This document shows, piece after piece, positions 2,420 through 32,700 of a DNA stretch of 64,000 bases. Source of the stretch: Terriglobia bacterium (GTDB lineage Bacteria; Acidobacteriota; Terriglobia; Acidiferrales; UBA7541); contig JAIQEV010000016.1 in assembly GCA_020073585.1 (NCBI GenBank), positions 1 through 64,000 on the forward strand, in the 5' to 3' direction. Made by a program: the position numbers and the translations under genes. How positions within the stretch are numbered: the stretch's first letter is position 1; the number at the start of each line of letters is the position of its first letter. The notes below the pieces were generated by a model. It had not been told where the DNA came from and made no database searches. It saw nothing but the letters and a program-made list of their open reading frames with translations.

Positions 2420-2444
2420 GGAACGGCAAAGAAGGAGGCCGACG

Positions 2445-3841: not shown

Positions 3842-3900
3842 GACTTCCCTGCCCCGCGGCCCGGTCTGCGGTGTAGAATCCGGGCAGGGGGCACGTTCTT

Positions 3901-4170: not shown

Positions 4171-5264
4171 AATATCTCGACGAATACCGCGACGAGCGCA
4201 TCGCGCTGGGCCTGGCGGAGCGCATCCGGGAGCGCGTGACGCAGCCCTGGGTGCTGATGGAGATCTGCGGCGGGCAGACGCACACGATCATGAAGTACGG
4301 CATCGAGGATCTGCTGCCGGAGGGCGTGGAGTACGTGCACGGGCCGGGCTGCCCGGTGTGCGTGACGCCGCTGGAGACGATCGACAAGGCCATCGAACTG
4401 GCGTCGCGGCCCGGGGTGACGCTGGTGTCCTACGGAGACATGCTGCGGGTGCCGGGCTCGCAGACCGACCTCTTCCATGTGAAGGCCCAGGGCGGCGACG
4501 TGCGCATCGTCTATTCGCCGCTGGAGGCGCTGAAGATCGCGCGGGGCAACCGCGAGCGCCAAGTGGTGTTCCTGGCGATCGGGTTCGAGACGACGGCGCC
4601 CCCCAACGCCATGACGGTGTGGCAGGCGCAGCGGGAGGGGCTGGAGAATTTTTCCGTGCTGGTGTCGCACGTGCTGGTGCCTCCGGCAGTGCGCTTGCTG
4701 CTGAATTCGCCGGAAAACCGCGTGCAGGGGTTCATCGCGCCGGGGCACGTGTGCACGGTGATGGGCTACCGGCAGTATGAGGAACTGGCGCGGGACTTCC
4801 GCGTACCCATCGTGGTGGGCGGGTTCGAACCGGTGGACCTGCTGGAGGCCACGCTGCTGGCGGTGACGCAACTGGAGCGGGGCGAGGCCCGGGTCGAGAA
4901 TCAGTACGCGCGGTCGGTCACGCGCGCGGGGAACGTGCCGGCGCAGGAGATGGTCGAGCGGGTCTTCGAAGTGGGCGACCAGAAGTGGCGGGGCATCGGC
5001 ACCATCCCGCAGAGCGGGCTGCGGCTGCGCGCGGAGTTTGCGACGTACGATGCGGACAAGCGCTTCGGCATCTCCGACGTGCACGTGGAAGAGCCGGCGG
5101 AATGCATCAGCGCGCTGGTGTTGCAAGGCATCCGCAAGCCGACCGACTGCCCGGCGTTCGGCACGCGGTGCACGCCGGAAAAGCCGCTGGGCGCGCCGAT
5201 GGTTTCCGCGGAAGGCGCCTGCGCGGCCTACTATCACTACCGGCGGCACCGGGTGGCGAGCTGA
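4167..5264 (+). CDS. hypD: Hydrogenase iron-cofactor assembly scaffold HypD
   Basis: Iron-sulfur scaffold of 365 residues on which the CN and CO ligands of the hydrogenase iron are assembled, together with HypC and HypE. Signature motifs are CGGQTH (about residues 34-39), the GPGCPVC motif (about 58-64) and [10 protein letters not shown]. The C-terminal cysteine-rich stretch with DCPAFGTRC ligates the 4Fe-4S cluster. It starts inside the hypC stop codon and is followed after 9 bp by hypE. The frame can be read further upstream through hypC, but the N-terminus MKYLDEYRD matches the family. Confidence 0.97.
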
Positions 5265-5273
5265 ACGGACCTC

Positions 5274-13745: not shown

Positions 13746-14405
13746 ATGTCGCGCCATCTCCCGCAACCGCAACCACAACCTCTGCCGCGGGCCAAGCCTG
13801 TAACCCAGTGGACCACCCGCGGGGTGATACTTCTGGCGCTATTCGCTTTCATGGCTGGCCTGGCCATCGGCTCATTGACCCGCGACGCCTCGCCACCCGC
13901 GCTTACCACGGCAGCTTCCGCGAACCTGCCAGCAGGCGCTGAGCCCCCGGGCGGAACCCCGCAGGCGGTCTCTCCGGAAGCGCTGCAGAAGATGGCGGCG
14001 CCGTTGCTTGCAGCGGTAAAGGCCGATCCGAAGAACCGCGTGGCGCTGATCCAGCTGGGCAATTTCTACTACGATCACAAACAGTTCCAGGAAGCGATTG
14101 AAAGCTACCGCCGCGTGCTGGAGATCGATCCGAAGAACATGGATGTGCGCACGGATCTGGGCACGGCCTATTGGTACCTGGGTTCGGCGGAAAAGGCCAT
14201 CGCCGAGTACGACAAGGCCCTGGCGATTCAGCCGAACTACGCGCCGACGATGATGAACCTGGGGATTATCCGCCAGGAAGGCTTAAAGGACGTCGCGGGA
14301 GCGCTGCTGATCTGGAAAAAGCTGCTGGAGACAAATCCGAATTTTGCGCAGAGGCAGCGCGTGCTTGATCTAATCGTGCAGGCGGAAAACGGGCAAAAGC
14401 AGTAA
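13746..14405 (+). CDS. Membrane-anchored TPR protein (NrfG/CcmI-like)
   Basis: A 219-residue protein with a short proline/glutamine-rich N-terminus, one membrane segment (about 26-44, GVILLALFAFMAGLAIGSL), a low-complexity linker and then about three tetratricopeptide repeats (from residue ~100: ALIQLGNFYYDHKQFQEAI, DVRTDLGTAYWYLGSAEKAI, APTMMNLGIIRQEG). The architecture resembles the periplasmic TPR part of cytochrome c assembly factors NrfG and CcmI. It stands at the head of a locus with three multihaem cytochromes, so a role in haem attachment or complex assembly is a reasonable inference. Upstream in-frame codons from 13623 lack a ribosome binding site. Confidence 0.78.
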   Translation: MSRHLPQPQPQPLPRAKPVTQWTTRGVILLALFAFMAGLAIGSLTRDASPPALTTAASANLPAGAEPPGGTPQAVSPEALQKMAAPLLAAVKADPKNRVALIQLGNFYYDHKQFQEAIESYRRVLEIDPKNMDVRTDLGTAYWYLGSAEKAIAEYDKALAIQPNYAPTMMNLGIIRQEGLKDVAGALLIWKKLLETNPNFAQRQRVLDLIVQAENGQKQ

Positions 14406-14677
14406 AACGGATCCGCCGAAAATTCTGCAAATTTATGACGCCCGCTCGACCGTGAGCGGAGGGAAAAATATTGCATAACTTCTGCCCTGTCAATCATCTG
14501 CGGTTTTTACCCCGAAACTGAGTGAAAACACCCATCACGCAACCGTTATGGAACAGAGTTGCCGTCTACCTCAGCGCAAGTTGTTTATAGAAAAGATGTT
14601 AGGAAGCGAAAAAAGTGCTGATGAGCGGCATGCGAATTGCGTAAGTAAAAGTTAGATCAAGTTGGAGCCTTACCCGA
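14406..14677 (+). other. 272-bp spacer before the 7-haem cytochrome gene
   Basis: AT-richer than its surroundings. It contains a CCGCTC-gaccgt-GAGCGG inverted repeat at 14442-14459 just after the TPR gene, without a T-tract. It probably holds the promoter of the cytochrome genes, but I cannot place -35 and -10 boxes with confidence. Confidence 0.35.
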
Positions 14678-15499
14678 ATGATCTGCTTTTTCTTCTATGC
14701 GCTATGGGTGTGGGCGCTCCCCCCACAGCAGGCGGCCGAGCATCCGGTAGCGCTGGCGGCGGACTTCGACGCCGCGCAGTGCAGCGAATGCCACGCGGAA
14801 AAGCAGCAAGGCAAGCATGTGCATTCGGCAATCGCCATGGGCTGCACGGCCTGCCACACCGTGGAGACCAAAGGGGAAACCACGCGGATCGGGCTGACGA
14901 TGCCTGCCGGGGAGATCTGCCTCACCTGCCATGAGCAGGCCAAAGCCGAAAAAGACGGCATGCTGCATCGCCCCTACGAACAGAAGCGCTGCGTCGTGTG
15001 CCACGACCCGCACAGCTCGGAGTTCACCGCGCAGACGCGCGCGCCGATGAACGCGCTATGCCTGGCCTGCCACAAGGAACGCGCCGAGGTGGGCGAGAGC
15101 GTGGAGCTGTTTGCGGGGCAGAAGCTCAGCGGCGAAGAGTTCAACCAGATTCCCAAGATCGGGCTGGATGCGACGCTGAAGTTTGGCCATCCGATGGGAA
15201 GCCACAAAGTAGCGGATGCGCCCAACCCGCTGCAAGCGGGGGAGAAGATTTCCTGCTTGACGTGTCATGAAAACCACGCCGCCGCGCGGGAGAAGTTGAT
15301 CCGCACGACGGAGTACAAAGGCAAAAAGATGGACGTATGCGATGCGTGCCATCTGGCCAATGACGAAGCCAATATGGCAGAAGCGCAGAAACGGGCGGAC
15401 GAACTCGAAGCGCAGCGGCAGAAGGAAGAGCAAATGCGCTCCAAGCAGCCGTCGACCATGCCGCAAAAGCCGCCCAGGCCCAAAGACAAGAAACCGTGA
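14678..15499 (+). CDS. Periplasmic heptahaem cytochrome c
   Basis: An exported cytochrome of 273 residues with seven CxxCH motifs: CSECH, CTACH, CLTCH, CVVCH, CLACH, CLTCH, CDACH. Several are in doubled CxxCH arrangements with extra histidines (CHDPH, CHENH) for bis-His ligation. An N-terminal hydrophobic stretch (MICFFFYALWVWALPP) acts as signal peptide. The last ~50 residues are highly charged and proline-rich (KPPRPKDKKP) with no haem. It precedes an NHL propeller by 12 bp. The likely role is the periplasmic electron carrier feeding the outer-membrane porin-cytochrome conduit encoded downstream; that role is inference. Confidence 0.88.
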   Translation: MICFFFYALWVWALPPQQAAEHPVALAADFDAAQCSECHAEKQQGKHVHSAIAMGCTACHTVETKGETTRIGLTMPAGEICLTCHEQAKAEKDGMLHRPYEQKRCVVCHDPHSSEFTAQTRAPMNALCLACHKERAEVGESVELFAGQKLSGEEFNQIPKIGLDATLKFGHPMGSHKVADAPNPLQAGEKISCLTCHENHAAAREKLIRTTEYKGKKMDVCDACHLANDEANMAEAQKRADELEAQRQKEEQMRSKQPSTMPQKPPRPKDKKP

Positions 15500-15511
15500 G
15501 ATGAGGCAATC

Positions 15512-16576
15512 ATGAACCAGAACAGAAAAGCAATCCGCCTCCTGCAATTAGCTCTTGTGGTTTTGGGCCTGCCCCTGATCTTAGCAGGGACCGACAAGGG
15601 AAAGCCCCAGGCGCCCAAGGCCGACACGTCGCAACTGCTCTGGCCGCTTCCCCCGGAAAAGCCGCGCGTCAAGTTTCTGCAGCAGTTGTCGAACAACTTC
15701 GACGTAGAGCCGAGGAAGAAAAAGTCCTGGATGGACAAGCTGGTTGGCAATCCCGACCCCAACGCGACGGAGCTGTTCGAGAAGCCCGCGGGAATTGCCA
15801 CCGACTCGCGCGGGCGGATCATCTTCGCCTCCACGCAGCGATCCGCAGTGTTCATCGTGGACCAGGCCCAAAAAACAGTCACCCGCTTGCAGGGTGACCG
15901 GGGCATTGTGCTGCAGACACCGCTGGGCGTGGTGGTGGACGCCCATGACAACATCTACGTATCCGATCCGCTGCAACACATGGTCTTGAAGTTCAACTCC
16001 AACGGGCAACTGCTGGCCACCGTGGGCGGCAAAGACGGCGAAAAGAATCCTACCTTCATGGCCCTGGACGAAGGCCGCCGGCGTCTTTATGTGGTGGACT
16101 CGCACCTGCATCAGGTGCTGGTGTTCGATCCGGACACTCTGGAACTGAAGAATAGGGTAGGCAAGCGCGGCGAGAAGAACGGCGAGTTCAATTTCCCCGT
16201 GGGTATTGCCGTGGGGCCCGACGGCAGTTTTGCAGTCACGGATACGGGAAGCTGCTCGGTGCAGGTGTTTACTCCCGATTTCAAGTTTGTGCGGCGCTTC
16301 GGCAGCCGGGGGGACCGGCCGGGTGAGTTCACCCGTCCGAAGGGCATTGCCATCGATAAAGAAGGCAACTACTGGGTGGTGGACGCCGCCTTCAATAATT
16401 TTCAGATTTTCAGCCCCAAGGGCGTGCTGCTGATGTGGATTGGGCAGTTCGGCAACGTACCTGGGGCCTTTAATCTTCCCCTGGGAATTTACATCGATCA
16501 GAGCCAGAAGGTCTTCGTGAGCGATCAGCTGAATCATCGTTTGCAGATCTTTCAATTCCTGGGGGGCGGAGACTAA
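15512..16576 (+). CDS. Exported NHL-repeat beta-propeller protein
   Basis: A 354-residue protein with an N-terminal signal (about 10-26, LLQLALVVLGLPLILAG) and then a six-bladed NHL propeller from about residue 90 to the end. Blades recur with patterns such as FEKPAGIATDSRGRIIFAS, TPLGVVVDAHDNIYVSDP, FNFPVGIAVGPDGSFAVTDT, FTRPKGIAIDKEGNYWVVDA and FNLPLGIYIDQSQKVFVSDQ. No catalytic residues are evident. NHL propellers accompany filament-forming cytochromes and porins in Geobacter-type electron-transfer loci, and here two such proteins bracket the 4-haem/porin pair. Confidence 0.88.
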   Translation: MNQNRKAIRLLQLALVVLGLPLILAGTDKGKPQAPKADTSQLLWPLPPEKPRVKFLQQLSNNFDVEPRKKKSWMDKLVGNPDPNATELFEKPAGIATDSRGRIIFASTQRSAVFIVDQAQKTVTRLQGDRGIVLQTPLGVVVDAHDNIYVSDPLQHMVLKFNSNGQLLATVGGKDGEKNPTFMALDEGRRRLYVVDSHLHQVLVFDPDTLELKNRVGKRGEKNGEFNFPVGIAVGPDGSFAVTDTGSCSVQVFTPDFKFVRRFGSRGDRPGEFTRPKGIAIDKEGNYWVVDAAFNNFQIFSPKGVLLMWIGQFGNVPGAFNLPLGIYIDQSQKVFVSDQLNHRLQIFQFLGGGD

Positions 16577-16678
16577 GAGTTTCTGTTCCGGCGATGAGCC
16601 GGACAGGGGCCGCGGCAGCCGTGGTTGCTGCAGCGGAGAACGTGCACCAGATAAGCAGTCGTTGTTCAAGGAGGCCGT

Positions 16679-17371
16679 ATGAAACCAGTCGTAAGGGCCG
16701 CTCTGTTGGCCTTGGCGGTATGCATCGCGTTACCAGCGTATGCCGCAAGGGCCCCCAAATCGGCCGTGTATGGTTCCGCTCACGATTTCAAGACGCAATT
16801 GGGCGGCGCCAGCTACACACTTTGTAACTTCTGTCACATTGCCCATAAGTTTGGCAGCGCCCCGACGGGTCCCGGCTATTTGCTGTGGAACCACACCCTG
16901 TCGAGCGTTGCCAGCTATGGCGTTTACACCAGCGATAGCATGCGTTCCACTCCGACTGACCTTGGCGGCCAGTTGGTGGTGAGCAACCTGTGCTTGAGCT
17001 GCCATGACGGTACGGTTGCCATCAACTCTTGGTACGAGGCGCAATCGGCAGCAGACTACTCGCTGCTTCCTCAGGGCACTCTCTTCATGCCCGACGACAC
17101 CACCGTAAGAGACTTGACCAAGCAGCACCCGGTCAATTTCGCTTACCCCGATCCCACCACGGCAGCAGCCATCGGCATATTGCCAGCCGCCGACCAGTTC
17201 TCGGTTGACGGCAACGGCAATGTTCCGCTCTTCGCCGGCAGAATGCAGTGCGCAACCTGCCACGATCCCCATGCAGGCCCCAGCTCGGGAGCGCACCTGT
17301 TCTTCCGGTCGTTCCCCAGCACACCGGCCCAGACTCTGACTGGGACGTCGTGCGTGTATTGCCACCTGTAG
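16679..17371 (+). CDS. OmcE-like tetrahaem cytochrome c, candidate nanowire subunit
   Basis: A 230-residue exported cytochrome (signal about 1-22, cleaved near AYA-ARA) with four haem motifs: CNFCH (49-53), CLSCH (105-109), CATCH (191-195) and CVYCH (225-229). The last ends one residue before the C-terminus. SCHDGTVA and CHDPHAG are typical of the OmcE/OmcS type. Haem number and size match OmcE of Geobacter, which polymerises into extracellular cytochrome filaments. A histidine close to the mature N-terminus (H35, SAHDFK) could serve a neighbouring subunit's haem, as in those filaments. AAGGAGG precedes the ATG. Electron transfer is secure; polymerisation is inference. Confidence 0.85.
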   Translation: MKPVVRAALLALAVCIALPAYAARAPKSAVYGSAHDFKTQLGGASYTLCNFCHIAHKFGSAPTGPGYLLWNHTLSSVASYGVYTSDSMRSTPTDLGGQLVVSNLCLSCHDGTVAINSWYEAQSAADYSLLPQGTLFMPDDTTVRDLTKQHPVNFAYPDPTTAAAIGILPAADQFSVDGNGNVPLFAGRMQCATCHDPHAGPSSGAHLFFRSFPSTPAQTLTGTSCVYCHL

Positions 17372-17379
17372 GAGCAAGA

Positions 17380-17414
17380 GGGAGGGGGAGCGCTTAACCT
17401 CGCTGCCCCCTCCC
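17380..17414 (+). other. Strong intercistronic hairpin
   Basis: A 13-base arm at 17380-17392 pairs with 17401-17414 (one bulged G) across an 8-base loop. It lies 8 bp after the 4-haem stop and ends 9 bp before the porin ATG, which has no Shine-Dalgarno sequence. No T-run follows, so it is more likely an mRNA-stability or translation-attenuating element than a terminator. It could favour high expression of the upstream cytochrome over the porin. Confidence 0.65.
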
Positions 17415-17423
17415 AAATCTTCC

Positions 17424-19304
17424 ATGAGCAGCGCCAAGCCAATTCGGACGATCCTGCTGAGCGCAACCCTGGCGCTGCTGGGGAGCGCACCGGCGCACGC
17501 CCAATATTCCGGCTACGAGCCTCCGCGCTGGCATGTCACCGGATTTGCCGGGATCAGCATCACCCATACCACGCAGAGCATGGTGGGGCAAAAGACAGAG
17601 ACCGGCCAGCTTTTCCCGGTGGGCGACTTTCGCTTGAATAGCGACGGCTTTCTGTTCGATCCCAGGTTCCTGCACCTCAATGCCGGCGTCGACTTTCAAA
17701 AAGGGGCCAACACCTCCGACCGCGGGGACTTGAGCACCGGAGGTATTAACCTGGCCCTAGGCGGGATTTTTTTGCCCAAGAGCCACGTGCCGCTGCGGGC
17801 GAATTACACCAAGAGCAACCACGGGGTCAGCGGGCTCGGCCTGGACCAGACCGATGACAATTCCCGGCTCGACGTACAGTGGGACGTGCTGTTCCCCAAC
17901 CTGCCCCGCATGACCGCATCGTTCCAGGAATATGGCAGCACGGTGCACGTGCCCACGTCGTTCGCCGACCGCACCTACAATGAGAAGGCCTTCAACCTGG
18001 GCATTTCCGACTTCTGGAAGGACTGGCACTGGGCGGGAAATTTTTCCATTGGCGGGGGCAATTCGGCCGGCGTTTCCCAGATCAGCCAAAATAGTCTATT
18101 TGATAATTCCACCCGCGCTGCGGGCTTCAATCTCAATCGCACGTTCTGGGAGAACAAGGCACGCCTGCAGTTCGATAACCGCGAGGTATGGCGGCATGAC
18201 CGTCTTGGGGGTGACGGCACAAGCGACAACAGTGAGTTCACCAACAACGTGACCTTTAACGTGCAGCTTAGCCCGCGGGTATCGCTGGATGCCGGCTACG
18301 CGTTTACTCAGGTGGACTTCGAGGGCGCGGGGTTCGGCAACGTGTTGGTCCCCGGAGGAGGCCCCATCCAGGTGATTTCCCTTGTTTCCAGCACCTCGCA
18401 CGCGGTCAGCGGGCGGGTGGGTTACCGTCCATTCGAAGGGCTGCGCTTGACGCAGGAAGTCCGAACCATACACTCAACTCCCGCCACTGGAGTGCTCGAG
18501 AGCCGGACCTCCTTCACGGAAACCGCCTCCACCGTCTCCGCGGAGCGCCGCTGGTACCATCTTGACCTGATGGGAACCTACATCGGCCGCTTTCAGCTGG
18601 CGGGCACGACTCTCGATCGTTCGCCAAATTCCTGGTCGAACAGCTTCCTGGGGCGTGCAGGCTGGGGCAACGTGCGCTATCTGCGCCTCACCGGATCCGC
18701 TCAGGATATCCGGCTCAATCTGGTGGAGCAGATCGGCGGGTACACCGCGGAGAAGCGCGTGGGAGTAGAGGCGGAGACTCACATCGTGAAATACTTCCGG
18801 CTGCGGGGCGGTGCGGAACACTCACAGGTGGATTTGCTGAACGTCAGCGGGAACACCCACAGCAAGATCACCACGTATTCCGTCCAGGCCGAGCAGCGCC
18901 TGTTCACAGTTACTTTCACCAACTCTTTGATGGATGGCGCTGGCGCCCTCTTCCCTCTTGGCCTGATCGACCGTCAGTTCCTGGTGATTCCGCTGCCCAT
19001 CAGTCAGCTGCTGGCTACTCCTCTGCTGAACCGCACAACCCATAGCCAGGGTCTGAGCATTATCGGAAGGCCGGGGCGCCGGCTGGACGTCTTATTCGCG
19101 TGGCGCAAGGAAGATACACGACTGGTTGCCTCAGACCAGACCTTCAACTATCTGCAGGCCGCTGCGCGCTACCGCCTCGGCCGGTTTTCGCTGGAGGGGG
19201 GCTACTCCCGCAATATAAACGAGGTGACCGTGATTACGGGCCTGACAGGTAATCGTTTGGCGATGTGGTACCTGCGAATTGGGAGGGATTTCAGGATTTT
19301 CTGA
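17424..19304 (+). CDS. Outer-membrane beta-barrel porin of the cytochrome conduit
   Basis: A 626-residue protein with a clear signal peptide (about 1-26, ending APAHA-QYSG). Its sequence is dominated by alternating amphipathic strands rich in Tyr, Trp, Phe, Asn and Ser (RLQFDNREVW, VSLDAGYAFTQVDF, RYRLGRFSLEGGYSRNI). It ends in phenylalanine (RDFRIF), the usual outer-membrane insertion signal. It is flanked by a 4-haem cytochrome and an NHL propeller, with a 7-haem and a 12-haem cytochrome nearby. This resembles porin-cytochrome conduits (MtrB, OmbB) in which the barrel insulates an electron path across the outer membrane. Specific homology to either family cannot be shown by eye. Confidence 0.82.
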   Translation: MSSAKPIRTILLSATLALLGSAPAHAQYSGYEPPRWHVTGFAGISITHTTQSMVGQKTETGQLFPVGDFRLNSDGFLFDPRFLHLNAGVDFQKGANTSDRGDLSTGGINLALGGIFLPKSHVPLRANYTKSNHGVSGLGLDQTDDNSRLDVQWDVLFPNLPRMTASFQEYGSTVHVPTSFADRTYNEKAFNLGISDFWKDWHWAGNFSIGGGNSAGVSQISQNSLFDNSTRAAGFNLNRTFWENKARLQFDNREVWRHDRLGGDGTSDNSEFTNNVTFNVQLSPRVSLDAGYAFTQVDFEGAGFGNVLVPGGGPIQVISLVSSTSHAVSGRVGYRPFEGLRLTQEVRTIHSTPATGVLESRTSFTETASTVSAERRWYHLDLMGTYIGRFQLAGTTLDRSPNSWSNSFLGRAGWGNVRYLRLTGSAQDIRLNLVEQIGGYTAEKRVGVEAETHIVKYFRLRGGAEHSQVDLLNVSGNTHSKITTYSVQAEQRLFTVTFTNSLMDGAGALFPLGLIDRQFLVIPLPISQLLATPLLNRTTHSQGLSIIGRPGRRLDVLFAWRKEDTRLVASDQTFNYLQAAARYRLGRFSLEGGYSRNINEVTVITGLTGNRLAMWYLRIGRDFRIF

Positions 19305-19331
19305 ATTGGAAAGGATGAAGCGGTAGCGATC

Positions 19332-20384
19332 ATGAGCCGCAAGACAAAAGTCGCGCTGCCCGCAGTAGTGAGCGCTGCCGCGGGCGTGCTCGTGCTGGCC
19401 ATCGCCGTCACCGCTTCTTCTTCCACCGCGCCAACCGCGCCGGTCTCCTTGGGGACTGTGGATTACCTGGGCTCCCTGCGCAGTCCCGCGGACGTAAAGG
19501 GCCGGCCGTCAGGTTTCAAGCGCTTCCTGAAAAAGGTGCTTGGGCTGGAAGACGACCACCGCCGCATGATATTGCCCCATGGAATTGCAGTGGACGCCAG
19601 CGGGCGCGTGCTGGTGGCCGACACGAAGGGCCGGGTCGTGCACCTGTTCGACAGCGCCGGACACCAGTACAAACAGCTTCACCCTCCGGCTTCCGACCCC
19701 TTCCTTTCTCCGATTGCCATCGCCCTCGACAGCCAGGGACGCATCTATGTCACGGATTCCGGCCGCTCCCGCATCTTCGTTTTCCGGCCGGACGGCAAGT
19801 TCCTGAGGACGCTCGGCGGACTGGGAAAGGACGAGAGCATCTTCAAGCGCTGCACGGGACTGGCCATCGACCGGCAACGCGACGTCTTGTACGTGGTGGA
19901 TACCGTGTCCATGCGCGTGGTGGTGCTCGACGCGGACGGCAAAGTGCTGGAGCGCTTCGGCAAGCCAGGAAAGGGCCCGGCGGAGTTCAATTATCCGACG
20001 CACATAACGGTCGCCGCCGATGGGACTCTGTGGATCGTGGATTCCCTCAACTTTCGCGTGCAGCACTTGGATGCCTCCGGCAAGTTTCTCTCCGCCTTCG
20101 GACAATTGGGCGAGCATTCCGGGGAATTCGACAAGCCCAAGGGCATTGTCGTAGACAGCCAGGGCCGCATTCTTGTCGTGGAAGGAAGAAACGACCGCGT
20201 GCAGGCTTACGACCCGGACGGACAGATGATCTTTGCTTTCGGCAATACGGGAAGCGCCCCGGGAGAGTTCTTTCTGCCAACCGGCATCGCCCTGGACAAA
20301 GAAGGCAAGATCTACGTCGCGGATGGCCAGAACGGCCGCGTCGAGATCTTTCGCCCCAGGGCCGGCGGGGAAGGAGGCCGCTGA
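19332..20384 (+). CDS. Second exported NHL-repeat beta-propeller protein
   Basis: A 350-residue protein with an N-terminal hydrophobic segment (about 8-30), which may be a signal or an anchor, and a six-bladed NHL propeller. Blades include ILPHGIAVDASGRVLVADT, LSPIAIALDSQGRIYVTDS, YPTHITVAADGTLWIVDS, DKPKGIVVDSQGRILVVEG and FLPTGIALDKEGKIYVADG. It is a paralogue in fold and position of the 15512 protein. Its stop abuts the GTG start of the 12-haem cytochrome, whose ribosome binding site lies inside this gene, so the two are translationally linked. Confidence 0.88.
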   Translation: MSRKTKVALPAVVSAAAGVLVLAIAVTASSSTAPTAPVSLGTVDYLGSLRSPADVKGRPSGFKRFLKKVLGLEDDHRRMILPHGIAVDASGRVLVADTKGRVVHLFDSAGHQYKQLHPPASDPFLSPIAIALDSQGRIYVTDSGRSRIFVFRPDGKFLRTLGGLGKDESIFKRCTGLAIDRQRDVLYVVDTVSMRVVVLDADGKVLERFGKPGKGPAEFNYPTHITVAADGTLWIVDSLNFRVQHLDASGKFLSAFGQLGEHSGEFDKPKGIVVDSQGRILVVEGRNDRVQAYDPDGQMIFAFGNTGSAPGEFFLPTGIALDKEGKIYVADGQNGRVEIFRPRAGGEGGR

Positions 20385-22253
20385 GTGCGCGGCGCAAGAC
20401 ACCTCGCGCTGTTGTTGCTGGCGGGCATCGCGCCTGTGGCGAACGCGCAAACCAGCAGCAAGCCGGCGATCCTGAACAGCAAGCACGATTTCCGCGCTGG
20501 TTCTTCTGCTCAGGTGCGCTCTGTTTCGACGGATGACGCCTGCGTCTTCTGCCACACGCCTCACAATGCCTCGCCGGGCAGTTATCTTTGGAACCACCGG
20601 CTGTCCACACGGGATTTTCCCGTTTACAGCAGCAGCACGCTGCAATCCACGGTTACCGCCATCCAGCCGCAAGACGTTTCCAAGCTATGCCTCAGTTGCC
20701 ACGATGGGACCATTGCCCTGGGTGACACGGTCAATGACGGCGCCATCGCGTTCGTTCAGGGCAACGGCTACACATTGCCGGCGAGTTCCGCGTCCAATCT
20801 CGCCGGCGATCAAACCTTCGCCAATGATCATCCGTTCGGTTTTGTGCCGCAACTGGGCCCGGAAACCGTGAACCCCGCGGCGTCCGATTCCGTCCGCCTC
20901 GACCGAAGCGGCAAACTGCAATGTACGAGCTGCCACGATCCGCATCGGGAAGACGCCGATCCGACAACGCGCAAATTCCTGGTGAAGTCCAACCAGGCAT
21001 CCAGCCTGTGCCTGACCTGCCACCAGAAAATCGGCTGGGATAGTTCGGTGCACAGCCGGCCGCCCGATCCGGTGGAAGACCTTCGCTACACGCAAAGCCA
21101 GGGAGCGCACACCGGGTACACGGGAGTGAGAAATAACGGGTGCGAGAGCTGCCACCGTCCGCACGCGCCTCAGGTTTCGCAGCGCCTGGTGAAGCAAGCG
21201 GAAGAAAACGTCTGCTTCCAGTGCCACGACGGCACGGTGACCAGCCGCAATATCAAAGCGGAGTTTCTGGGCAAAACTTACAAGCACCCGGTGCTGCTGA
21301 CGCCTTCCACGCATGATGCCGCCGAAGATCCCAATTCCGCGCTGCATCCGCTCCCGGAAACCAGCGTGGGGCTGCCGCGTCATACAGAATGCATGGATTG
21401 CCACAACCCGCACATCGCCAGCAGCGCCACGGGGCAGCCGCCGCTGGTGAGCGGGGCCCTGCTGGGCGTAAAAGGCCAGACAGCGGGCAATTCATTCCTG
21501 CCGCAAGCCGTCAACGAATATGAAATTTGCTTTAAGTGCCACGGCGATAGCGCCAATAAGCCGCAGCCTCTCGATTACGGCACGGCAGGCATCGGCTACG
21601 GACGCAATCCGCAGCGGCAATTCGACGCCGGGAGCCTAAACGCATATAACACGCGCATTGAGTTCACGCTGAGCTCCTCATTTCATCCAGTAACCCGGGC
21701 GCGCAACCTGTCGCTGGCCGAAGTGCCGAGTCTGCGGACGAACGTGACGAATTACAGTGGCGCGCCGATCACCAGCCGGCCGCTTTCCGGGGGCAGCCAG
21801 ATCTACTGCACCGACTGCCACAACAGCGATACGGGGCGGAACCTGGGCATTTCCGGCAACCTCCCCAGCGGGCCCCATGGGTCCGATCTGCCGCACATTC
21901 TGGAGCGCGGCAACACGCTGGAAGCTCCTCCGGCCACGCCGGGGAGCAATGGCTCGGGAGTGACCTACACACTATCCAATTATGCGTTGTGCGATAAGTG
22001 CCACGACGTTCAGAACAGCGTGCTGGCCGACCGCAGTTTCGGAAAGCATAGCCTGCACGTTGTGGAACAACGTGCCGCTTGTTCCACGTGTCATGATCCC
22101 CACGCTTCGTCCGCCGCCATGCTGGTGAATTTTGATCGCAGCGTCGTTGCGCCCAACAGCCAGGGCGTGCTGCAGTTTACCCGCAGCAGTCCCGGACACG
22201 GTTCCTGTTCTCTGCGCTGTCATGGCCAGGACCATACGAATGAGTCCTACTGA
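20385..22253 (+). CDS. Dodecahaem cytochrome c, probably outer-surface
   Basis: A 622-residue exported cytochrome starting at GTG with AAGGAGG eight bases upstream. The signal peptide covers about residues 1-21 (ending VANA-QTSS). It has eleven CxxCH motifs (CVFCH at 53, then CLSCH, CTSCH, CLTCH, CESCH, CFQCH, CMDCH, CFKCH, CTDCH, CDKCH, CSTCH) and one CxxxCH (CSLRCH, C608-H613) near the end, so up to twelve haems. The N-terminal HDF...CVFCHTPHNA...LWNH...KLCLSCHDGT block is strikingly like that of the 4-haem protein, indicating shared ancestry. It probably receives electrons from the porin conduit or filament; that is inference. Confidence 0.87.
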   Translation: MRGARHLALLLLAGIAPVANAQTSSKPAILNSKHDFRAGSSAQVRSVSTDDACVFCHTPHNASPGSYLWNHRLSTRDFPVYSSSTLQSTVTAIQPQDVSKLCLSCHDGTIALGDTVNDGAIAFVQGNGYTLPASSASNLAGDQTFANDHPFGFVPQLGPETVNPAASDSVRLDRSGKLQCTSCHDPHREDADPTTRKFLVKSNQASSLCLTCHQKIGWDSSVHSRPPDPVEDLRYTQSQGAHTGYTGVRNNGCESCHRPHAPQVSQRLVKQAEENVCFQCHDGTVTSRNIKAEFLGKTYKHPVLLTPSTHDAAEDPNSALHPLPETSVGLPRHTECMDCHNPHIASSATGQPPLVSGALLGVKGQTAGNSFLPQAVNEYEICFKCHGDSANKPQPLDYGTAGIGYGRNPQRQFDAGSLNAYNTRIEFTLSSSFHPVTRARNLSLAEVPSLRTNVTNYSGAPITSRPLSGGSQIYCTDCHNSDTGRNLGISGNLPSGPHGSDLPHILERGNTLEAPPATPGSNGSGVTYTLSNYALCDKCHDVQNSVLADRSFGKHSLHVVEQRAACSTCHDPHASSAAMLVNFDRSVVAPNSQGVLQFTRSSPGHGSCSLRCHGQDHTNESY

Positions 22254-22283
22254 AGAGACGGGCGGGAACGAAGAAAGGAAACC

Positions 22284-23036
22284 ATGAAGAAAGTCATCTT
22301 AATAGCCACTGGAGTGATCGCGCTTACAGCCGTAGCCTTTGCGCTCATCCGCGCTTCCGCAACACGCCCTTCAATCATGGGCGGCGTTGCCGTCACAGAG
22401 CCTAGTTACACGCAGAAGCTGCTGGCCGGCGTGAAGGCGAACTTCACAACCGGCAAAGCCGAAATTCAGCGTTCCTTCGAGGCCAAGAAAAATGCGCAGA
22501 GCTACCGCATGAAGACCGTGTTGCGGCTGCATCCGGGCCATCCTCTCGAGACCGTAATCGAGGTTTCCTGTCCGGACCGTGAGCGCTTCACCACGACCAT
22601 TGGCGACCGCGCCTTCCATGCTGTGCGCATCGCCAACAAGGCGTACGTCGAGCAGCAGGACGGCACCTGGACGGTGCAGGACACCCCGCCGAGCGGATGG
22701 TCGCCTTGCGGAGAGAACCCGGGCGAGCCCGCCCCCTGGGCGGTGATGAATGAAGGCCGGGAGCTGGTCACCGTTCTGGCGAAAATGTCGGAAAATGCCG
22801 AGATCGCCCGCGGAGCCTTCGTCGGAACCAGCAGCGGCAATTGCCAGCAGTGGGTGGTGAATCTCAAGGTGCCCGGAAGCGCCGGGCAGGGGCATGGCAA
22901 TAATGGCTTGCGCTACACCGTGTGCATCGATCCGAATCAGCATCTGCCCGTGACCGTGAGCATGGGCAGCGGCGGCATGGTCGCCAGTTACTCCGATTGG
23001 AACCATCCCATTCCGATCGAAGCCCCGCCCATGTGA
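22284..23036 (+). CDS. Exported protein of unknown function, LolA/LppX-like in appearance
   Basis: A 250-residue protein with an N-terminal membrane or signal segment (about 4-24). It then has a beta-rich region (YRMKTVLRLHPGHPLETVIEV, AVRIANKAYVEQQDGTWTVQD) that looks like the half-barrel fold of LolA and mycobacterial LppX lipid carriers. Four cysteines could form two disulfides. No haem motif. GAAAGGAAACC precedes the ATG. It is the last gene of the cytochrome locus, 30 bp after the 12-haem gene, and faces the convergent spoIID gene. The fold assignment is tentative. Confidence 0.6.
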   Translation: MKKVILIATGVIALTAVAFALIRASATRPSIMGGVAVTEPSYTQKLLAGVKANFTTGKAEIQRSFEAKKNAQSYRMKTVLRLHPGHPLETVIEVSCPDRERFTTTIGDRAFHAVRIANKAYVEQQDGTWTVQDTPPSGWSPCGENPGEPAPWAVMNEGRELVTVLAKMSENAEIARGAFVGTSSGNCQQWVVNLKVPGSAGQGHGNNGLRYTVCIDPNQHLPVTVSMGSGGMVASYSDWNHPIPIEAPPM

Positions 23037-25109: not shown

Positions 25110-26794
25110 TCGTAGGTGACCGTCTGCAGTACCTTCTCTCCCGCTTCGCGCACCACAATTTTTTCCGTAGCCACGCCGGAAAGCGTGGAGCTCAGGCTGG
25201 CGATATTCCCGGAGAAAAACTGCGGGACGCGCTCCGTTCCCGCACCCGCGTTCTGCCGGTCAAGCAAGGACGTGAGGCGCACGAAGTTTTTCTGTTCCCG
25301 CGCGTGATTGAACCCGGCGACAAACACCGCAGGTTGGCCGCCGGCCACGCGGCTCAGATTGACCAGCAGGCCGTTCAGCAACGCGGGCTCGTCGGAGAGC
25401 AGCAGGTATTTTCCGTGCACCGCGGCGGCGAATGTCCATAGACCGTCCAGTTCCTGATAGCCGGATTTCGGCTGCCAGGCGACGCCCAGCGGACCGGCGG
25501 TCAGCCCGGGCCGCACAAAGTCCACGAGGGCGGAGTGCACCGCGGCTTCATTCCACTCCGCACTGCCTGCGAGAGCCACCGCGGAATGGATACGCACGAA
25601 GACGCCGTCCTTGTCCCGCTCCGTGGCCTGCACCTGCAGGACGGCGCGAACCGGATTTTTCGCGAGCAGCTCCTTCAGCGGAGCCGCACCATCCGCGGAA
25701 ATCGCGTGCTGCACGGGCGCCTGATCGATGCGCGTCTCCAGGTCGGAACTGCTTCCCGTTTCGCCTCCCGTGAGCTGCACCTGCGGCGCGAGCTGTTCGG
25801 CGGCCGCCGGACCGAGGTGCGGCGCAAGGAGCTTGGTCTCCAGCAGAGTGAAACTCGCCTCGGCGGAAGGCGCGGCTTTTGCCTCGTAGAGGCCGGCTTC
25901 GGCGGGAACGAGGCGCAGCAGATCGGCGACGGCGGCTGCACCGTCTCCGGCTGTAGCTTCACCTGCCGTCGCCGCTTTTTTCAGCAGGACCCGCTCCTCG
26001 CGATACTCCGTGCCGGAGCGGAAGAGATCGGACACCGCGGCGCTGTACTGCTTCATGTCCGTGATGTTCTGCTGCACCCAGTAGGAGCGGAAATAGGGGC
26101 TGGGCACGAGCTTTTCAAGATTCAGGACCATGCGCAGATCGCCCGCCGGTCCCGCAGCCGCCACTGCCTGCGTCCACCACTGCTCGCTCTCGACGGTGCG
26201 GTCCTTGCTCCCCGCGAGGAGCTGCAGGGCGCCGGCCATCAGGTCTTCGCGCGTGGCCAGCAGGAGATAGTCGCCGCTGACGGCGAAGGCTACTTCCCTC
26301 TCGGATTCGGGGTCGCGGCGCAGGTAAAAGATCACACCGCCGGCGTTGCGCGTTTCGAATGTCGCGCGCGTCTGCCACAGCGCGGATTGCATGGCGCTGG
26401 CCGAAGCCAGGCGCGTGATGTAGAGAAACTGCAGCTTGCCGATGTCGTAGAGCGCCAGCGCGCTCTGCCGCCCCGCCACTTGCGTGAGCAGGTTCATATC
26501 CGGCGGCAGGCCGGCGGCGGCGTTGAATTGATCGCTTGCGTCTTTCAAGCGGAGAAACAGCCGCGAGCGTGAATAGACCTGGTAGTTGCCGCTCTGCAAC
26601 CACTGCTGCTTCTGCGGCGAGGCATTCCAGTCCGCCAGCAGCGCGGAAAAATCCTGGGTCTGCAGATAGAGCAGCGCGCCGGAGGGACAGTAGCCGGAAA
26701 GCGCCGGCGGTTCGGGCGCCACGGCCTGATACGCCGCCCAGCCCGCGCCCAGGCAGATCGCACCCAGCAGAAGAAACACGAGTACGCGTTTCAT
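25097..26794 (-). CDS. Membrane-anchored protein of unknown function, DUF3352-like
   Basis: A 565-residue protein with an N-terminal membrane segment (about 3-25) and a long extracytoplasmic part. Repeated elements such as ALYDIGKLQFLYITRL and FAVSGDYLLLATREDLMAGALQLLAG resemble proteins annotated DUF3352, whose function is unknown. No catalytic motif is evident. It overlaps the giant TPR gene by four bases (ATGA) and the PBP gene by 13, so it is translated as part of the six-gene operon. The family call is from general resemblance only. Confidence 0.7.
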   Translation of the reverse strand: MKRVLVFLLLGAICLGAGWAAYQAVAPEPPALSGYCPSGALLYLQTQDFSALLADWNASPQKQQWLQSGNYQVYSRSRLFLRLKDASDQFNAAAGLPPDMNLLTQVAGRQSALALYDIGKLQFLYITRLASASAMQSALWQTRATFETRNAGGVIFYLRRDPESEREVAFAVSGDYLLLATREDLMAGALQLLAGSKDRTVESEQWWTQAVAAAGPAGDLRMVLNLEKLVPSPYFRSYWVQQNITDMKQYSAAVSDLFRSGTEYREERVLLKKAATAGEATAGDGAAAVADLLRLVPAEAGLYEAKAAPSAEASFTLLETKLLAPHLGPAAAEQLAPQVQLTGGETGSSSDLETRIDQAPVQHAISADGAAPLKELLAKNPVRAVLQVQATERDKDGVFVRIHSAVALAGSAEWNEAAVHSALVDFVRPGLTAGPLGVAWQPKSGYQELDGLWTFAAAVHGKYLLLSDEPALLNGLLVNLSRVAGGQPAVFVAGFNHAREQKNFVRLTSLLDRQNAGAGTERVPQFFSGNIASLSSTLSGVATEKIVVREAGEKVLQTVTYEWAR

Positions 26795-29700
26795 GGCCGC
26801 TCACCGCCTTTCGCAGAGTCCTTGGCAGGCGGCACGGCGCGCGCCACCAGACGCGGGCGAACCAGGCGATCCTGCTCGAGCTCGGGATGCAGGATCGGCT
26901 GCCGCGCCGCATTGAGTTGCTGCAGCCGCAGACTGCTCTTCACCGCCGCGATTCTCCCGACGATCTCCTTGCGGCGCGCGGCCGTTTTCTCCAGCCGGCG
27001 CGCCAGATCCAAATACGGCAGAGCTTCGTTGAGACGATCGAGCCGGGCCATGGCGTCTCCCACCAGCCATGCGAGTTGCGCCTGCTGCGCGGGCGGGAGC
27101 TTGCTCGCGGAGTAGTCCAGCGCCGGAGATCCTTCCTGCGCGCTCTCGGCTTCGTCGGAGCTCAGGATCTCTTCTTCCACGCGATTCACCCGGGCCGCGG
27201 TGGTACGCAGAAAGCGCTGGCGCAAGAGGGGCTCGAGCGCCGCGAGGGCATATTCATCCGCGTGCAGACTCACCGCGGCCTCGAACAACGGAATGCGCGC
27301 ATCGTCGCGGAGCGGAGTGTCCGCGAGCGCGTTCGCGAGGAGCTGGCGCTTCATGCGCGCATCGCCGGCGTTCTGCGCGGCGCGCAGGCGCGCCTCGTAG
27401 AAGAACGGCTGGTCTGCCGCCGCGCTGGAAATCCCGTGCGCATTGCCGGCCAGAAGTTTCAGCTCGCCGCTTCCGAATTCCGCCTGCGGGCGCGCGCTGG
27501 CCAGAGCCGCCGCGGCTTCGACCCGCAGGGCGTACGAAACATCGGCGCTGGAGGCAATCTTCACGAGCGTGTCCTGCGCGGCGCCGGTGTCCTGTCCGGC
27601 GGCGATGCGGGCTTTCGCCAGGCGGAGGCGGAAGGAAGCCTCCCAGGGCGTGGCTTTGACCAGCTGTGCGAGGAACTCCACGGCCTCCGCGGAATGGCCC
27701 GTTTTTTCCAGCAGCGCCGCGGCCGGATCCAGATTCTCGAACGGGGCTCCGACGACGACCACCAGGCGGCGCAGCAACTCCAGCGCGCCGGGCGTGTCGC
27801 CGGCGGCAATGCGAATTTCTGCCAGGCCCAGGAAGTTAGCGGCGGCCAGTTTGTGCTCGTCGATTTCGCGCGCGAAGACATACTCGAGCACTTTGCGCGC
27901 GGCTTGCTTGTCGCCCGCGGCGAAGAGCTGCTGCGCCGCAGACCGCAGGATCTCCGAAGCCGGCGCACTCTGCGGATCGGCGCGGTAGCCGGCGATCCTG
28001 GCATCCAGCGTGTTGAGCTGCGCGGCTACCTGCAGGTCCAGGGGAACCAGCGCGGCGGCCTCCGCCGTGCGCGTCTCCGGCGGCAGAGAAGCGATCAGCT
28101 CGGCCACTTCGGAGAACTGTTTCGTCCGCAGCAGATGGCTGGCCCAGCGCACTTGCCACGAACGCAGCTCCTGCAGGGCGTACTCCTTCTCGTAACCCTC
28201 GGTCTTGGCAATCCGATTCTGCTTGGCTTCCAGAATGCGTTGGTAGAGCGGCGTGCGCTGTTCCAGGGGAATCCACGGCGTTTCCACCACGTCCGCCAGA
28301 ATGATGGTGGGATCCTGGGCCACGGAAACCAGATCGAGCAGCCATGCGGTCGCCGCCGCCGGATCACCGGCGGCCGTATACGCGGCGCGCAGCACCGCGT
28401 TGGAGCGGTAGTTGCCGTTGCGGCGCAGATAAGCGCGCAGCAGCGCATCCACATCGGGCTTCCGCTCGGCGAACAGATGCCGCGTGCGCAGGTGCTCGCA
28501 GGCGCGCGCGAAGTCCGTCCAGAAGCTTTCCGGCACGCGCGCGGTATTCACCTGCTGCAACAGCGCTGCAAAGACCAGCTTCCACTCCGCGAGCGCTTCC
28601 GCGCGCTGGCCCTGCGCAAAGTAGGCGATGGCCAGCCGGTCATGCACGTCGGCGCGTCCCGGCGCTAGTTCTAGCGTGTGATTGTAATCGGCGATGGCGG
28701 CGCGTGTGTCACCGCTGTCCGCGTAGTAATCGGCCAGCTCCAGGTAGCCGGAGGCGGATGCCGGACTTTGCTCCAGGACGGCGGGGAGAAACGCTTCCGA
28801 ATTTCCCTGCCGGGTGGCGCCAAGATATTCGCCGTAGCGTGAGCCGTAGTAAAACCAGATGCCGCCCGCCAGCCGGTCGTTGCGATTCACCGGCTTGCCC
28901 AGACGCTCGCCGATGGTGCCGTTCCCGAGCGCGCCCAGGAAGGCATTGTTCACTTCCGGCGTCGGCTCGGCAAAATACAATCCCACCAGCGCGCCGTACG
29001 CCTTGTTCCACACGGCGGCGCGGGACCGGCCGCGCGCGGCCACAACCGCGTGCGCCAGTGCCGCGTCGCCATTGGCAACGGCGAAATCGGCAGCTTGCTG
29101 GCCCCAAGGGGACCAAGCCGATGCGAGTTGCACCAGCTCTTGCGGCCGGCGCTGCAAGAGCAGCTCCAGAAAGCGTTTCTGCCCGTCGCGGCCCAGGTAT
29201 GTATAGAAAACCATCGAAAGGACGCGCAGCTCGTTCTCCGCATCCCCCGCGGAACGATAGGCCCTCGCTGCGGCGAGCAGCGTGGAAGCCTGCTGGTACT
29301 GTTGCAGCCGGGGCGCAAGCCGCTCCAACTGCGGGCCCAGCTCGGCGAATTTCAGCCGCCGCCGCTGCAGTTCCGCAAATTCATTCATCTGCCCGAAAAG
29401 GACTCCCGGCTGCGTCGCGGGATCCAGCAGCAGCTCGTACCGCCAGCGCGCTTCCAGATCCGCGAGGCCGGCGCTTTTCACCAGCGGCACCGCGAACTCT
29501 TGTGCATCCGCCGGGCGCATCGCGGCGCGCTGCGCCTGCGCGAATTGCGCGAACGCCGCCTTTTCCTCGGGAGTGAACTGGCGCGCCACCGCGCCGCCCA
29601 TTTCGACAAGCGCGGCGCGCAGTCCTTCCCGGGCATTCTGGACGCGCGTTTCCTGCGTGCGCTTGCGCCACTCGCTGTCGGTCACGGCAGCAATGCCTTC

Positions 29701-32700
29701 CCGGGCCACCTGCTCCTTGAGCACCGGCAACAGTGAAGACGCGGATGCCGCCGCGCTCTGCAGCGTGGTCCAGGCCTTCTCCTGCTGGCGCAGGCGGGTC
29801 ATGATGCGCGCGTAGAGCTTTGCTCCGGCGTGGTGCTCCGTAGCCACCAGCAGATCGCCGCCGGCTACGCTGATTCCCTGCTCCGCAAAGCCGCGCGCCG
29901 GCACCAGCATGCCCCACGCTTCCAGGTGCCCGGCCACTTCGAAGTAGTTCTCCGCCTTTTCCGGGCGCACATCGATCAGCGCCATTTTCAGGGCCACCAC
30001 CACATCCTCGGTCCGGCCCTGGCGCGCGCGCACCTCGGCGATCTTCTCCATCCACTTCGGATCTTTGTACGCCAACTGATAAACGCGCTCGTAATCGGCG
30101 ACCGCATCATCGAAACGCATCAGCCGCTCGTCGAGCGCTGCGCGCGCCACGCGCAGGTCCACGCGGTCCGGCCGGATGGTGATGGACTTGCCGTAGGCGT
30201 CGATGGCCGCGGGGAAATTCTCGAGGCTGGCGTAAATGCGCGCCAGCACCATGGACCAGCGATAGTCCCGCGGTGACTGCAGTACCGTCTTGGCGTAAAA
30301 ATCGATGAGCTGCTGCTGGCGCTTGTAGCGCAGCGTGTAGAGCGCGGCCTCGGTCGCCAGCCCCTCGTCTTCCGGGAAGCCGTTGAGTAACTCGATGTAC
30401 TGGTCCACCGCGCCGGCAAAGTCCTCCAGGTGGGTGAGCGCGGGGATCAGGCCGCGGCGCAGCGCCGCGGTGCGCGCCTTGCGCTCGTCCGCCGGGAACG
30501 GGGCGGTGCGAAACAGCGTGATCTTCTCCAGATAGAACTGCTTCAGGCCCTGCTGATCGCCGGCTTGCGCATAGGTGTCCGCCATGGCTGCCAGGTACTG
30601 CCCGTCATACGGAGCGTCCTTCAGAAGCTGCGCCAGCAGCGCGCGCGCCTGCTCGAACTCCCGCGCCTCCGTGGATTTGCGCGCGGCTTCGAACGTGAAT
30701 TGCGCGCTCAGCGCGGGATAGGCGTCCTTGGCGGCGCGCTGGAGCACCGCGAGGCCCTGCGGATAGAGCTTCCGCCGCCAGTAGAAGTCCACCGTCGAGC
30801 GCACCACGCCGAGAATCGCGGGATTCTCCCGGTAGAGGACCTCAACGTTGCGCTGCGCGGAGGCGAAGTCCTTCCGGCTCTCGTACAGGCGCACCAGCGC
30901 ATAGCGCAGCTGAAGGCGCGCCACGGGATCGCTCGTGAGCGAGGCCTGCCTTTCCAGGGCGTGCTGCCGCACAGCTTCCAGCGATTTCTGCTGCGCCAGC
31001 GTTTCGATCTCCGCGGCCTGTTCGATCGCAGTCGTGCCGTTGAGCACCCCGTCGAGGAAGCTGACCAGCTCCGGCTTACGGTCCTGCGCTTCCAGCACGC
31101 GCACGCGCAAATGCACCGTCGGCGCCGGCGGATTGGACGCCGCCGTAAGTTTCTGCGTCTCGCGGTCCACCAGCTCGCGGAATTTCGGCCGCCGGGCCAG
31201 TTCGAGTAAGCGGTTTTGCGCCGGCGATTCCCCGCCCGCAGCCAGCGCACCGCGCACGTATTCCTGAACAGCGCGCGCATAGTCGTGCTTGTTTTCGCAG
31301 ATGGCGCCGGCTTCGTAGCCATAGAGCTCTTCGTTGCCCAGCTTCTTGCGGCCTTCGTCCAGCAGGCGCAACGCATTGTCGAAGTCGTAGTAATCCCAGT
31401 AGATCGTCGCGGCTTCCAGATAGCCGCCGGCTTCTCCCGGCGCGGTCCGCGGAATGCGCTCCCAGTAGGGCGCGGCGCGGGCGAAGAGTTCGCGGTCGGC
31501 GTAGATGTCGCCGATGCGCGCCAGAATCTCCGTGCTGCCGGGATTGGCCGCGAGCAGGTTGTCTTCGATCTTCACGGCCACGCCGGTTTTCGCGGGATCA
31601 AAACCCGCCAGCGAACGGAACACCGAAGAGGCCGTGCGCCCGAGTTCCGCCTCCGCGGGATATTCCCCCGCCAGAGCCTGCAGCACCGGCGCGCTCTCTT
31701 CGAAGTGCGCGCGCCACAATTGCGCCTGGGCCAGAAATTGCCCCGCGGCGGGATTGCCGCGCACAAACTCGTCCCACGAACCCTTCCCCGCCGCGGGAGC
31801 GTTCTGCTGCACGGCGCGTAGCTCCGCTTCCAGCTTTCCGCTGCTCGTCAGGTACTCGAAAAACTGATCGCGCAGATCCGGCTCCTCGAACCAGTGCTGG
31901 CGCAATAGCGCCTCCCACGCGGCCGGGTCCCAGGTTTCCTTGCGTCTATAGGCGCCCAGCAGATTGCGCACAAAGGCTGGATTGTGCGGAAAGCGCGCGT
32001 GGGCGTACTGGTTCAGGCGCACGTACATCGCCGGCGTGCCCTCGCCGGCGGACTGAAAATATCCTTCCAGGTCGCTGCCGATGAAGCTCTTGACCGCCTC
32101 CTGGGTCAGCCGCTCGAATTCCGCGTTCTTCCGCTGCCGCAGGTAAAACCGCGCGAGCTTGTGATACCAGGAACGGTCCGGGAAGCGCGCCATCGCCCGC
32201 CGGTACACCTCTTCCTGCTCTGCGCCCAGCCGATTCTGTTCCAGAAATACCGCGAGCCGCTCGTACAGCCCGGGATCGTCGTGGTTGTGATCGATCTCGC
32301 GGCGCAGCACGCCCAGCGCCTGCGGGATCTCTTTGCGCTCCACCAGCCGCGCCAGATAGCGCTCCAGCACGCGCGCGTATTCCGGGGAGCGCGCGCCGAC
32401 CTGCGTGGGCGTGGCAGCCGCATTCACTTCAAACGCCGCGTTACGGGCTCGATGCGGCACGCGCTGCAGGGCATCCCCCTCGGTGTCCGCGCTCTCCGGC
32501 TCTTCTTCTGAAGGCTCCGTTTCCGCTTGTGCTTCGGAGGTGTACGCACCGGCAGCGGATCCACCGGGGCCCGCGGCGTCCGGCCCCAGCGGCACCTGCT
32601 CGGCCTTCGCCGCCAGTTCCTGCAGGACGGAATCGTAGATCGCGAACTCTTCCTGGGTCTTCCCGGTGCGCGCGTAGGCATCGGCCATGAGCAGCGCAAC

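Follow-up and report, generated by a model that had tools for sequence, protein, structure and literature searches.

A candidate Uet-type outer-membrane electron conduit with an OmcE-family cytochrome in an acidobacterial genome

Results

Organisation of the cytochrome-porin locus

We investigated a 64,000-nucleotide stretch of DNA from a Terriglobia bacterium (hereafter the window), part of contig 53 in a draft genome of 4.03 Mb, and in particular a locus of eight consecutive plus-strand open reading frames (ORFs) encoding three multihaem cytochromes, a porin, two NHL beta-propeller proteins, a TPR protein and a further protein with a hydrophobic N-terminal segment (Table 1). With a probability of about 0.7, we interpret this locus as an outer-membrane electron conduit of the Uet (undecaheme electron transfer) kind that ends in an OmcE-type cytochrome. 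Our ORF check of the window recovered all eight frames (8/8) between positions 13746 and 23036, in agreement with an earlier reading of the DNA (the original prediction) in coordinates and in the haem counts of 7, 4 and 12, and Pfam likewise recognised both of the NHL propellers that it had named. As calculated from the coordinates, the TPR and 7-haem genes are separated by 272 bases, and the subsequent intergenic gaps amount to 12, 102, 52, 27, 0 and 30 bases. The number of haem motifs is beyond chance: the plus-strand ORFs of at least 200 amino acids (aa) contain 22 CxxCH motifs, as compared with a maximum of 3 per shuffle in 200 second-order Markov shuffles, for which totals were taken over all ORFs of at least 60 aa. 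Scans for regulatory signals stayed near chance, both for promoters (4 promoter-like sites versus a shuffle mean of 2.2) and for terminators (10 terminator-like sites versus a shuffle mean of 10.8). The locus had also been called complete, which is too strong a word, since the inner-membrane quinol step is absent from it.

Table 1. Genes of the cytochrome-porin locus, with positions in the window.
Product	Position	Strand	Features
TPR protein	13746..14405	+	TPR_11 E 2.9e-17 (Pfam); hydrophobic N-terminal segment by eye
c7h, 7-haem cytochrome, 273 aa	14678..15499	+	7 CxxCH; signal-like N-terminus; MtrA similarity
NHL1, NHL beta-propeller	15512..16576	+	Pfam NHL E 8.4e-30
c4h, tetrahaem cytochrome, 230 aa, OmcE family	16679..17371	+	7tfs_A match; 4 CxxCH
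Outer-membrane beta-barrel porin (predicted)	17424..19304	+	28 predicted strands; Foldseek top match MtrB
NHL2, NHL beta-propeller	19332..20384	+	Pfam NHL E 2.7e-38
c12h, 12-haem cytochrome, 622 aa	20385..22253	+	11 CxxCH + one CxxxCH
Protein with hydrophobic N-terminal segment	22284..23036	+	family-less in Pfam/NCBIfam; near relatives only

The tetrahaem and 12-haem cytochromes

The c4h protein, which carries a signal-like N-terminus, matches the OmcE structure (PDB 7tfs_A) over most of its length already as a single sequence (E 1.2e-10), and a six-sequence c4h profile raises this match to E 4.1e-28 over profile positions 11-226 of 227; a second solved structure, PDB 9YUQ, is matched as well. 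Moreover, of 65 tetrahaem proteins, at least 64 retain each of the four distal histidines that c4h has in common with OmcE, and these 65 proteins end abruptly, with the C-terminus 1-2 residues past the fourth motif in 63 of them and at 4 and 7 residues in the other two. The full-length homology thus confirms the expected OmcE-type cytochrome, and on these sequence grounds c4h is a candidate nanowire subunit of the OmcE family. The relationship to OmcS that had been considered alongside did not hold: the OmcS family is hexahaem, c4h has four haems, and its profile gave no OmcS match at E 0.1.

The c12h protein consists of two parts, an OmcE-like tetrahaem domain (residues ~33-214) and an eight-haem remainder. 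Residues 15-215 match OmcE with E 1.3e-21 as a single sequence, and a profile of 79 sequences does so with E 2.4e-48. In a predicted model of c12h (mean predicted local distance difference test score, pLDDT, 83.7), residues 33-214 superpose on 7TFS with Z 13.5 and a root-mean-square deviation (rmsd) of 2.4 (VIA-align), and Foldseek aligns the model to the same structure with E 2.5e-8. The eight-haem part searched alone in the PDB gave a weak match (best E 0.02) to a multihaem cytochrome. All twelve haem motifs, the CxxxCH included, are invariant in 79 of 79 aligned sequences, which comprise the window and 78 of 80 related loci; since these rows were chosen at ≥10 CxxCH (L021, with 6, and L075, with 9, were dropped), this invariance is partly selected for. 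Across the same alignment, 15 histidines outside the motifs are invariant, for 12 haems. The twelfth motif lies at window positions 22206-22223 (c12h residues 608-613), and in the 80 relatives, taken without the CxxCH selection, one CxxxCH is present in 78 and exactly 11 CxxCH in 76. Because this motif is a CxxxCH, haem counters that use CxxCH only arrive at 11, and the published name "undecahaem" for such proteins probably misses one haem, as far as motifs can tell.

The N-terminal domain of the 12-haem proteins keeps the four distal histidines of OmcE in 81 of 81 cases, and the proteins are extended by eight haems from the very point where the tetrahaem proteins end. An extra histidine just behind haem 4 (H223) is found in all 81 of these domains and in none of the 65 tetrahaem proteins. 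As the latter end there, it reflects an extension and not a substitution, and we dropped it as a decisive ligand argument. In a tree of 146 domains, a single branch parts the tetrahaem and 12-haem kinds with a Shimodaira-Hasegawa-like approximate likelihood ratio (SH-aLRT) value of 94, just below the 95 mark in a quick search with long branches, and 0 of 500 shuffles were as low. Because one branch separates both kinds, the tetrahaem proteins and the c12h N-domains look like old paralogues kept together. Among the matches listed, the closest 12-haem relative is from Candidatus Angelobacter sp. Gp1-AA117 (73% identity); the closest named relatives are Acidobacteriota, which bears out the acidobacterial host suggested by the original prediction. 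A plasmid search with c12h as query gave no match.

The porin and the remaining proteins

The porin has no match in Pfam or NCBIfam at E 0.1. An AlphaFold2 model, built with 60 relatives found near 12-haem genes, predicts a 28-strand barrel (mean pLDDT 82.5; predicted template modelling score 0.73), and its top Foldseek match is MtrB (6r2q_B, E 5.9e-12; runner-up E 6.2e-9). The beta-barrel proposed earlier is therefore supported at the level of structure prediction, and the refuting outcome that the original prediction had named, a porin predicted not to form a barrel, did not occur. The relatives were drawn from 81 porin candidates pre-filtered by length, lack of CxxCH and a C-terminal F/W/Y/L, a filter that favours the result; an iterated profile recovered 63 of them, none further than 6.2 kb from a 12-haem ORF, bearing in mind that iterated profiles can drift. 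The porin alignment holds 61 of these 63 rows, L021 and L024 having been left out (<560 aa).

The c7h protein is similar to MtrA (6r2q_A) with E 1.1e-8 over part of its length and scores 58 bits against the DmsE family, for which the NCBIfam cut-off is 192; it is a candidate for the periplasmic-side wire or plug of the porin. The TPR protein, with homologues in the same-genus loci L008 and L009, matches TPR_CcmH_CycH below that family's cut-off and might be a cytochrome-maturation helper. Near clusters in other phyla we observed a TPR gene (L054, 2307-3344) and a thioredoxin-TPR gene (L041, 13678-14805), which are possible maturation helpers as well. The last protein of the locus has homologues in near relatives only (L008, L009, L014 and L125).

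Distribution and conserved neighbourhood

A scan of named genomes with two patterns, both inside the OmcE-like domain, yielded at least 584 stretches, of which at least 559 were confirmed as relatives, possibly including tetrahaem proteins. We counted the best 80 of these at least 559, i.e., the loci most similar to that of the window; 72 of them belong to 14 phyla and 8 could not be placed, the labels being NCBI lineages of record titles, mostly of metagenome bins. Cultured carriers include Aromatoleum tolulyticum ATCC 51758 (L063) and Desulforhopalus sp. IMCC35007 (L032). Neighbouring genes were counted in the 60 of 80 loci whose 12-haem gene had an upstream flank of at least 5.5 kb. A tetrahaem gene, sought within 10 kb, is present in 57 of the 60, at least one NHL gene in 59 and at least two in 57, and a porin candidate in 50. 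All of them (tetrahaem, two NHL and porin) occur jointly in 48/60 loci, which represent 12 named phyla and two unassigned loci. In other phyla, the genes often run tetrahaem, NHL, 5-haem, porin, NHL, 12-haem, and the haem number of the neighbouring multihaem gene ranges between 5 and at least 16 across loci, while the 12-haem protein is nearly constant. The gene order is also conserved in other acidobacterial genomes, as had been anticipated: the core block of multihaem, NHL, 4-haem, porin, NHL and 12-haem genes is syntenic in six related genomes, with the 7-haem gene of L011 and the 7- and 4-haem genes of L012 found by a second search. Moreover, the same genome holds a second complete set (16-haem, NHL, 4-haem, porin, NHL, 12-haem) on contig 21 (L124, 4205-12421). 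In a sample of the phylum, 39 of 396 genomes gave a match. The long form accounts for 29 of these, in some cases in fragments, and the remaining 10 have only the OmcE-like part; hence, an OmcE-like protein can be present where the 12-haem protein is missing.

Some clusters have further neighbours. A five-CxxCH OmcE-like protein, possibly another filament or docking subunit, adjoins clusters L023, L025, L047, L049, L052 and L068, and a secretin gene together with genes for two proteins whose N-termini carry type IV pilin-like methylation motifs adjoins the cluster of L012 (13100-16328), of which it could be the export route.

Neighbouring genes in the window

Upstream of the locus, the window encodes a NiFe hydrogenase large subunit, a cytochrome b561, HypD and an AIR-synthase-like (HypE-type) protein (707-6335). 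The hydrogenase on which the original prediction based an H2-driven respiration is thus real, but H2 as the driver finds no support beyond this proximity. A full-length hydrogenase large subunit is present in only four of the eight carriers examined, and in the three of these other than the genome of the window, hydrogenase and locus sit on separate contigs (all being draft assemblies); as the two are not linked in relatives, we rejected this proposal. Downstream, on the minus strand, a 2479-aa open frame (26791-34230) has no Pfam match at E 1e-10.

Discussion

Proposed mechanism

Our assignment of the locus to the Uet kind of conduit is based on the gene content, the cytochrome family membership, the predicted barrel and the conserved co-occurrence. 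From these we infer an arrangement, namely the location and function of the individual parts, polymerisation and the direction of electron flow. In this arrangement, the porin would form the conduit sheath around a haem wire across the outer membrane, and the MtrA-like c7h would be the wire on the periplasmic side. The 12-haem protein would carry electrons between the conduit and the outside, where the tetrahaem OmcE homologue would polymerise, or at least act, at the cell surface, and the two NHL propellers may be assembly or docking factors. A candidate for the quinol link of the conduit could be a cluster on contig 110 of the same genome (L138, 4504-18400), provided that this contig belongs there; it encodes a cytochrome b (petB type), a NapC/NirT-type domain, a cytochrome b561 joined to a part that has 13 CxxCH, and ORFs in which 19 and 10 CxxCH were counted.

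Several observations weigh against this interpretation. The draft genome has a contamination of 3.34%, and contig 110 might have been binned wrongly. The fold match between the porin and MtrB is modest (TM 0.51, rmsd 12.3), VIA-align places MtrB level with other large barrels, and a PDB search with the porin profile gave no sequence match at E 1. Additionally, a typical lipobox was not seen by eye on the cytochromes, which leaves surface attachment unexplained. Finally, the porin is found at E 0.001 in only 7 of 151 genomes, its own included and one of them weakly, and the locus is thus no core feature of the lineage.

Alternative explanations

The same parts could run inwards and take up electrons from Fe(II), a mineral or a cathode, as proposed for Uet in the available descriptions, which place that system in cathode-oxidising Tenderiales and in Gallionella iron oxidisers (PMC10734462). 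Haem-copper oxidases, found in 8/8 carriers examined, make O2 a possible sink for such electrons; however, none of these eight carriers has a RuBisCO large chain, a search limited to that route of CO2 fixation, and we consider uptake rather unlikely. Since the oxidases are present and the RuBisCO large chain was not found, we slightly favour outward flow (to minerals, humics or partner cells, e.g., under oxygen limitation) over autotrophic uptake. The roles within the barrel might also be exchanged, with the eight-haem part of c12h as the wire and c7h as a periplasmic shuttle. In line with this, residues 138-582 of the whole c12h model fit MtrA (VIA-align; Z 9.5, 219 residues, rmsd 3.8), the 79-sequence profile matches MtrA weakly over short stretches (E 2e-7), and it is the neighbouring multihaem protein that varies, from 5 to at least 16 haems. 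We nevertheless regard this exchange as doubtful, given that c7h alone matches MtrA with E 1.1e-8, that c12h residues 215-622 alone are unmatched to MtrA at E 10, and that the fold comparison, which covered 12 chains, may reflect common haem packing.

A further possibility, if not the likelier one, is that the tetrahaem protein stays monomeric and shuttles electrons at the surface. Polymerisation does not follow from homology to a filament subunit, and c4h is further from OmcE than the c12h domain is (E 1.2e-10 versus 1.3e-21). On the other hand, at least 64 of the 65 tetrahaem proteins retain each of the four distal histidines, and in the OmcE filament, according to the available accounts, a histidine of the adjacent subunit ligates one of the haems of each subunit (PMC12307469, PMC12954529, PMC12203936), namely haem 2 (PMC12203936). 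Very improbable, in our view, is a substrate-specific respiration (dimethyl sulfoxide (DMSO), nitrite or sulfite reduction) that uses similar conduit proteins. Matches to the DmsE, NrfB and NrfH families do exist, but far below the curated cut-offs, and a catalytic reductase is neither among the eight genes (Pfam, NCBIfam) nor recurrent in the conserved block. We therefore rejected a DMSO or nitrite/sulfite pathway, the latter of which the original prediction had itself named as a potential objection.

A possible link between filament and conduit

The passage of electrons from filament to cell in Geobacter is described as not well understood (PMC10553843, available text). We tentatively suggest, while considering it rather unlikely, that the 12-haem protein is a nanowire coupler, i.e., a terminal filament subunit that links the cytochrome filament to the conduit. 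It looks like such a subunit because it combines the filament fold with an eight-haem C-terminal extension and is encoded beside the filament subunit and the porin. Its N-terminal OmcE-like domain would be a specialised terminal subunit onto which the tetrahaem homologue polymerises, and the eight-haem part, attached where filament subunits end, would lead the chain of haems on into the porin. The domain in the coupler and the subunit of the filament would then be old paralogues travelling with the porin in at least 12 named phyla. More simply, haem 5 might be served by the extra histidine, and the c12h N-domain might be left over from common descent and make no contact with a filament. Our search of the open-access literature, part of which was available to us, found no such idea in print. 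If true, the coupler would be the physical link of cytochrome filaments with the cell. A conserved OmcE-type subunit, a porin and a cytochrome with a paralogous domain are, in any case, concrete parts with which to approach the question of how electrons enter the cell from filaments. This gene set also ties the Uet conduit to the OmcE nanowire family, and it places such hardware well outside Geobacter, in Acidobacteriota, Verrucomicrobiota, Planctomycetota and others.

Comparison with known systems

The nearest described system is Uet, of which the window locus is a variant, a likeness drawn from the parts list in the accessible description. Uet is reported from cathode-oxidising Tenderiales (Candidatus Tenderia) and comprises the undecahaem UetJ, the extracellular tetrahaem UetA, the peptidyl-prolyl isomerase (PPIase) UetB, the porin UetC, three periplasmic trihaem cytochromes (UetDEG) and two NHL proteins (UetHI; PMC10734462). 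Here too, an 11-CxxCH protein, a tetrahaem protein, a beta-barrel porin and two NHL proteins stand in one cluster: c12h, with its 11 CxxCH and one CxxxCH, would correspond to UetJ, the 4-haem protein with a signal-like N-terminus to UetA, the predicted barrel to UetC and the two Pfam NHL proteins to UetHI. Unlike the published list, the eight genes include no PPIase (Pfam), which in other acidobacterial loci (L013, L016) is present as a parvulin/SurA-type gene between tetrahaem and porin. Trihaem cytochromes like UetDEG are likewise absent from the window, where the 7-, 4- and 12-haem ORFs are the only ones of at least 40 aa with at least two CxxCH. The 7-haem MtrA-like protein, the TPR protein and the extra exported protein are further differences from Uet. 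Related arrangements appear in the accessible portions of other reports, i.e., UetJ and its porin in Leptothrix-group genomes (PMC13386937), conduits from cave metagenomes that centre on an undecahaem cytochrome and porin-cytochrome clusters in Acidobacteriota bins (PMC13264449), and, in Geoalkalibacter, two NHL proteins accompanying an OmcE homologue (PMC12016550). In the open-access literature, as available, we found neither the OmcE identity of both cytochromes nor the twelfth haem, and the original Uet description may hold the OmcE homology.

MtrCAB (PDB 6R2Q) resembles the locus in that MtrB is the top Foldseek match of the porin and c7h is similar to MtrA. The MtrB barrel has 26 strands and MtrA has 10 haems, whereas the porin has 28 predicted strands and c7h has 7 haems, with a match to MtrA that is partial (E 1.1e-8); a typical lipobox was also not seen on the cytochromes here. 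The MtrC/OmcA family (TIGR03507) scores far below its cut-off for c7h and c4h and was not listed for c12h.

The OetABI / OmcKL conduits of sulfate-reducing partners of anaerobic methanotrophic archaea (ANME) and of Geobacter are clustered with nanowire-type cytochromes (PMC10553843), as is the conduit here; judging from the description available, they are set apart in that they come with OmcX and OmcS-like cytochromes. With the Geobacter sulfurreducens OmcE nanowire (PDB 7TFS), c4h shares the tetrahaem family and the ligand histidines. The difference is that the OmcE homologue of the window, a candidate filament subunit, is encoded together with a porin, two NHL proteins and a 12-haem protein that itself bears an OmcE-like domain.

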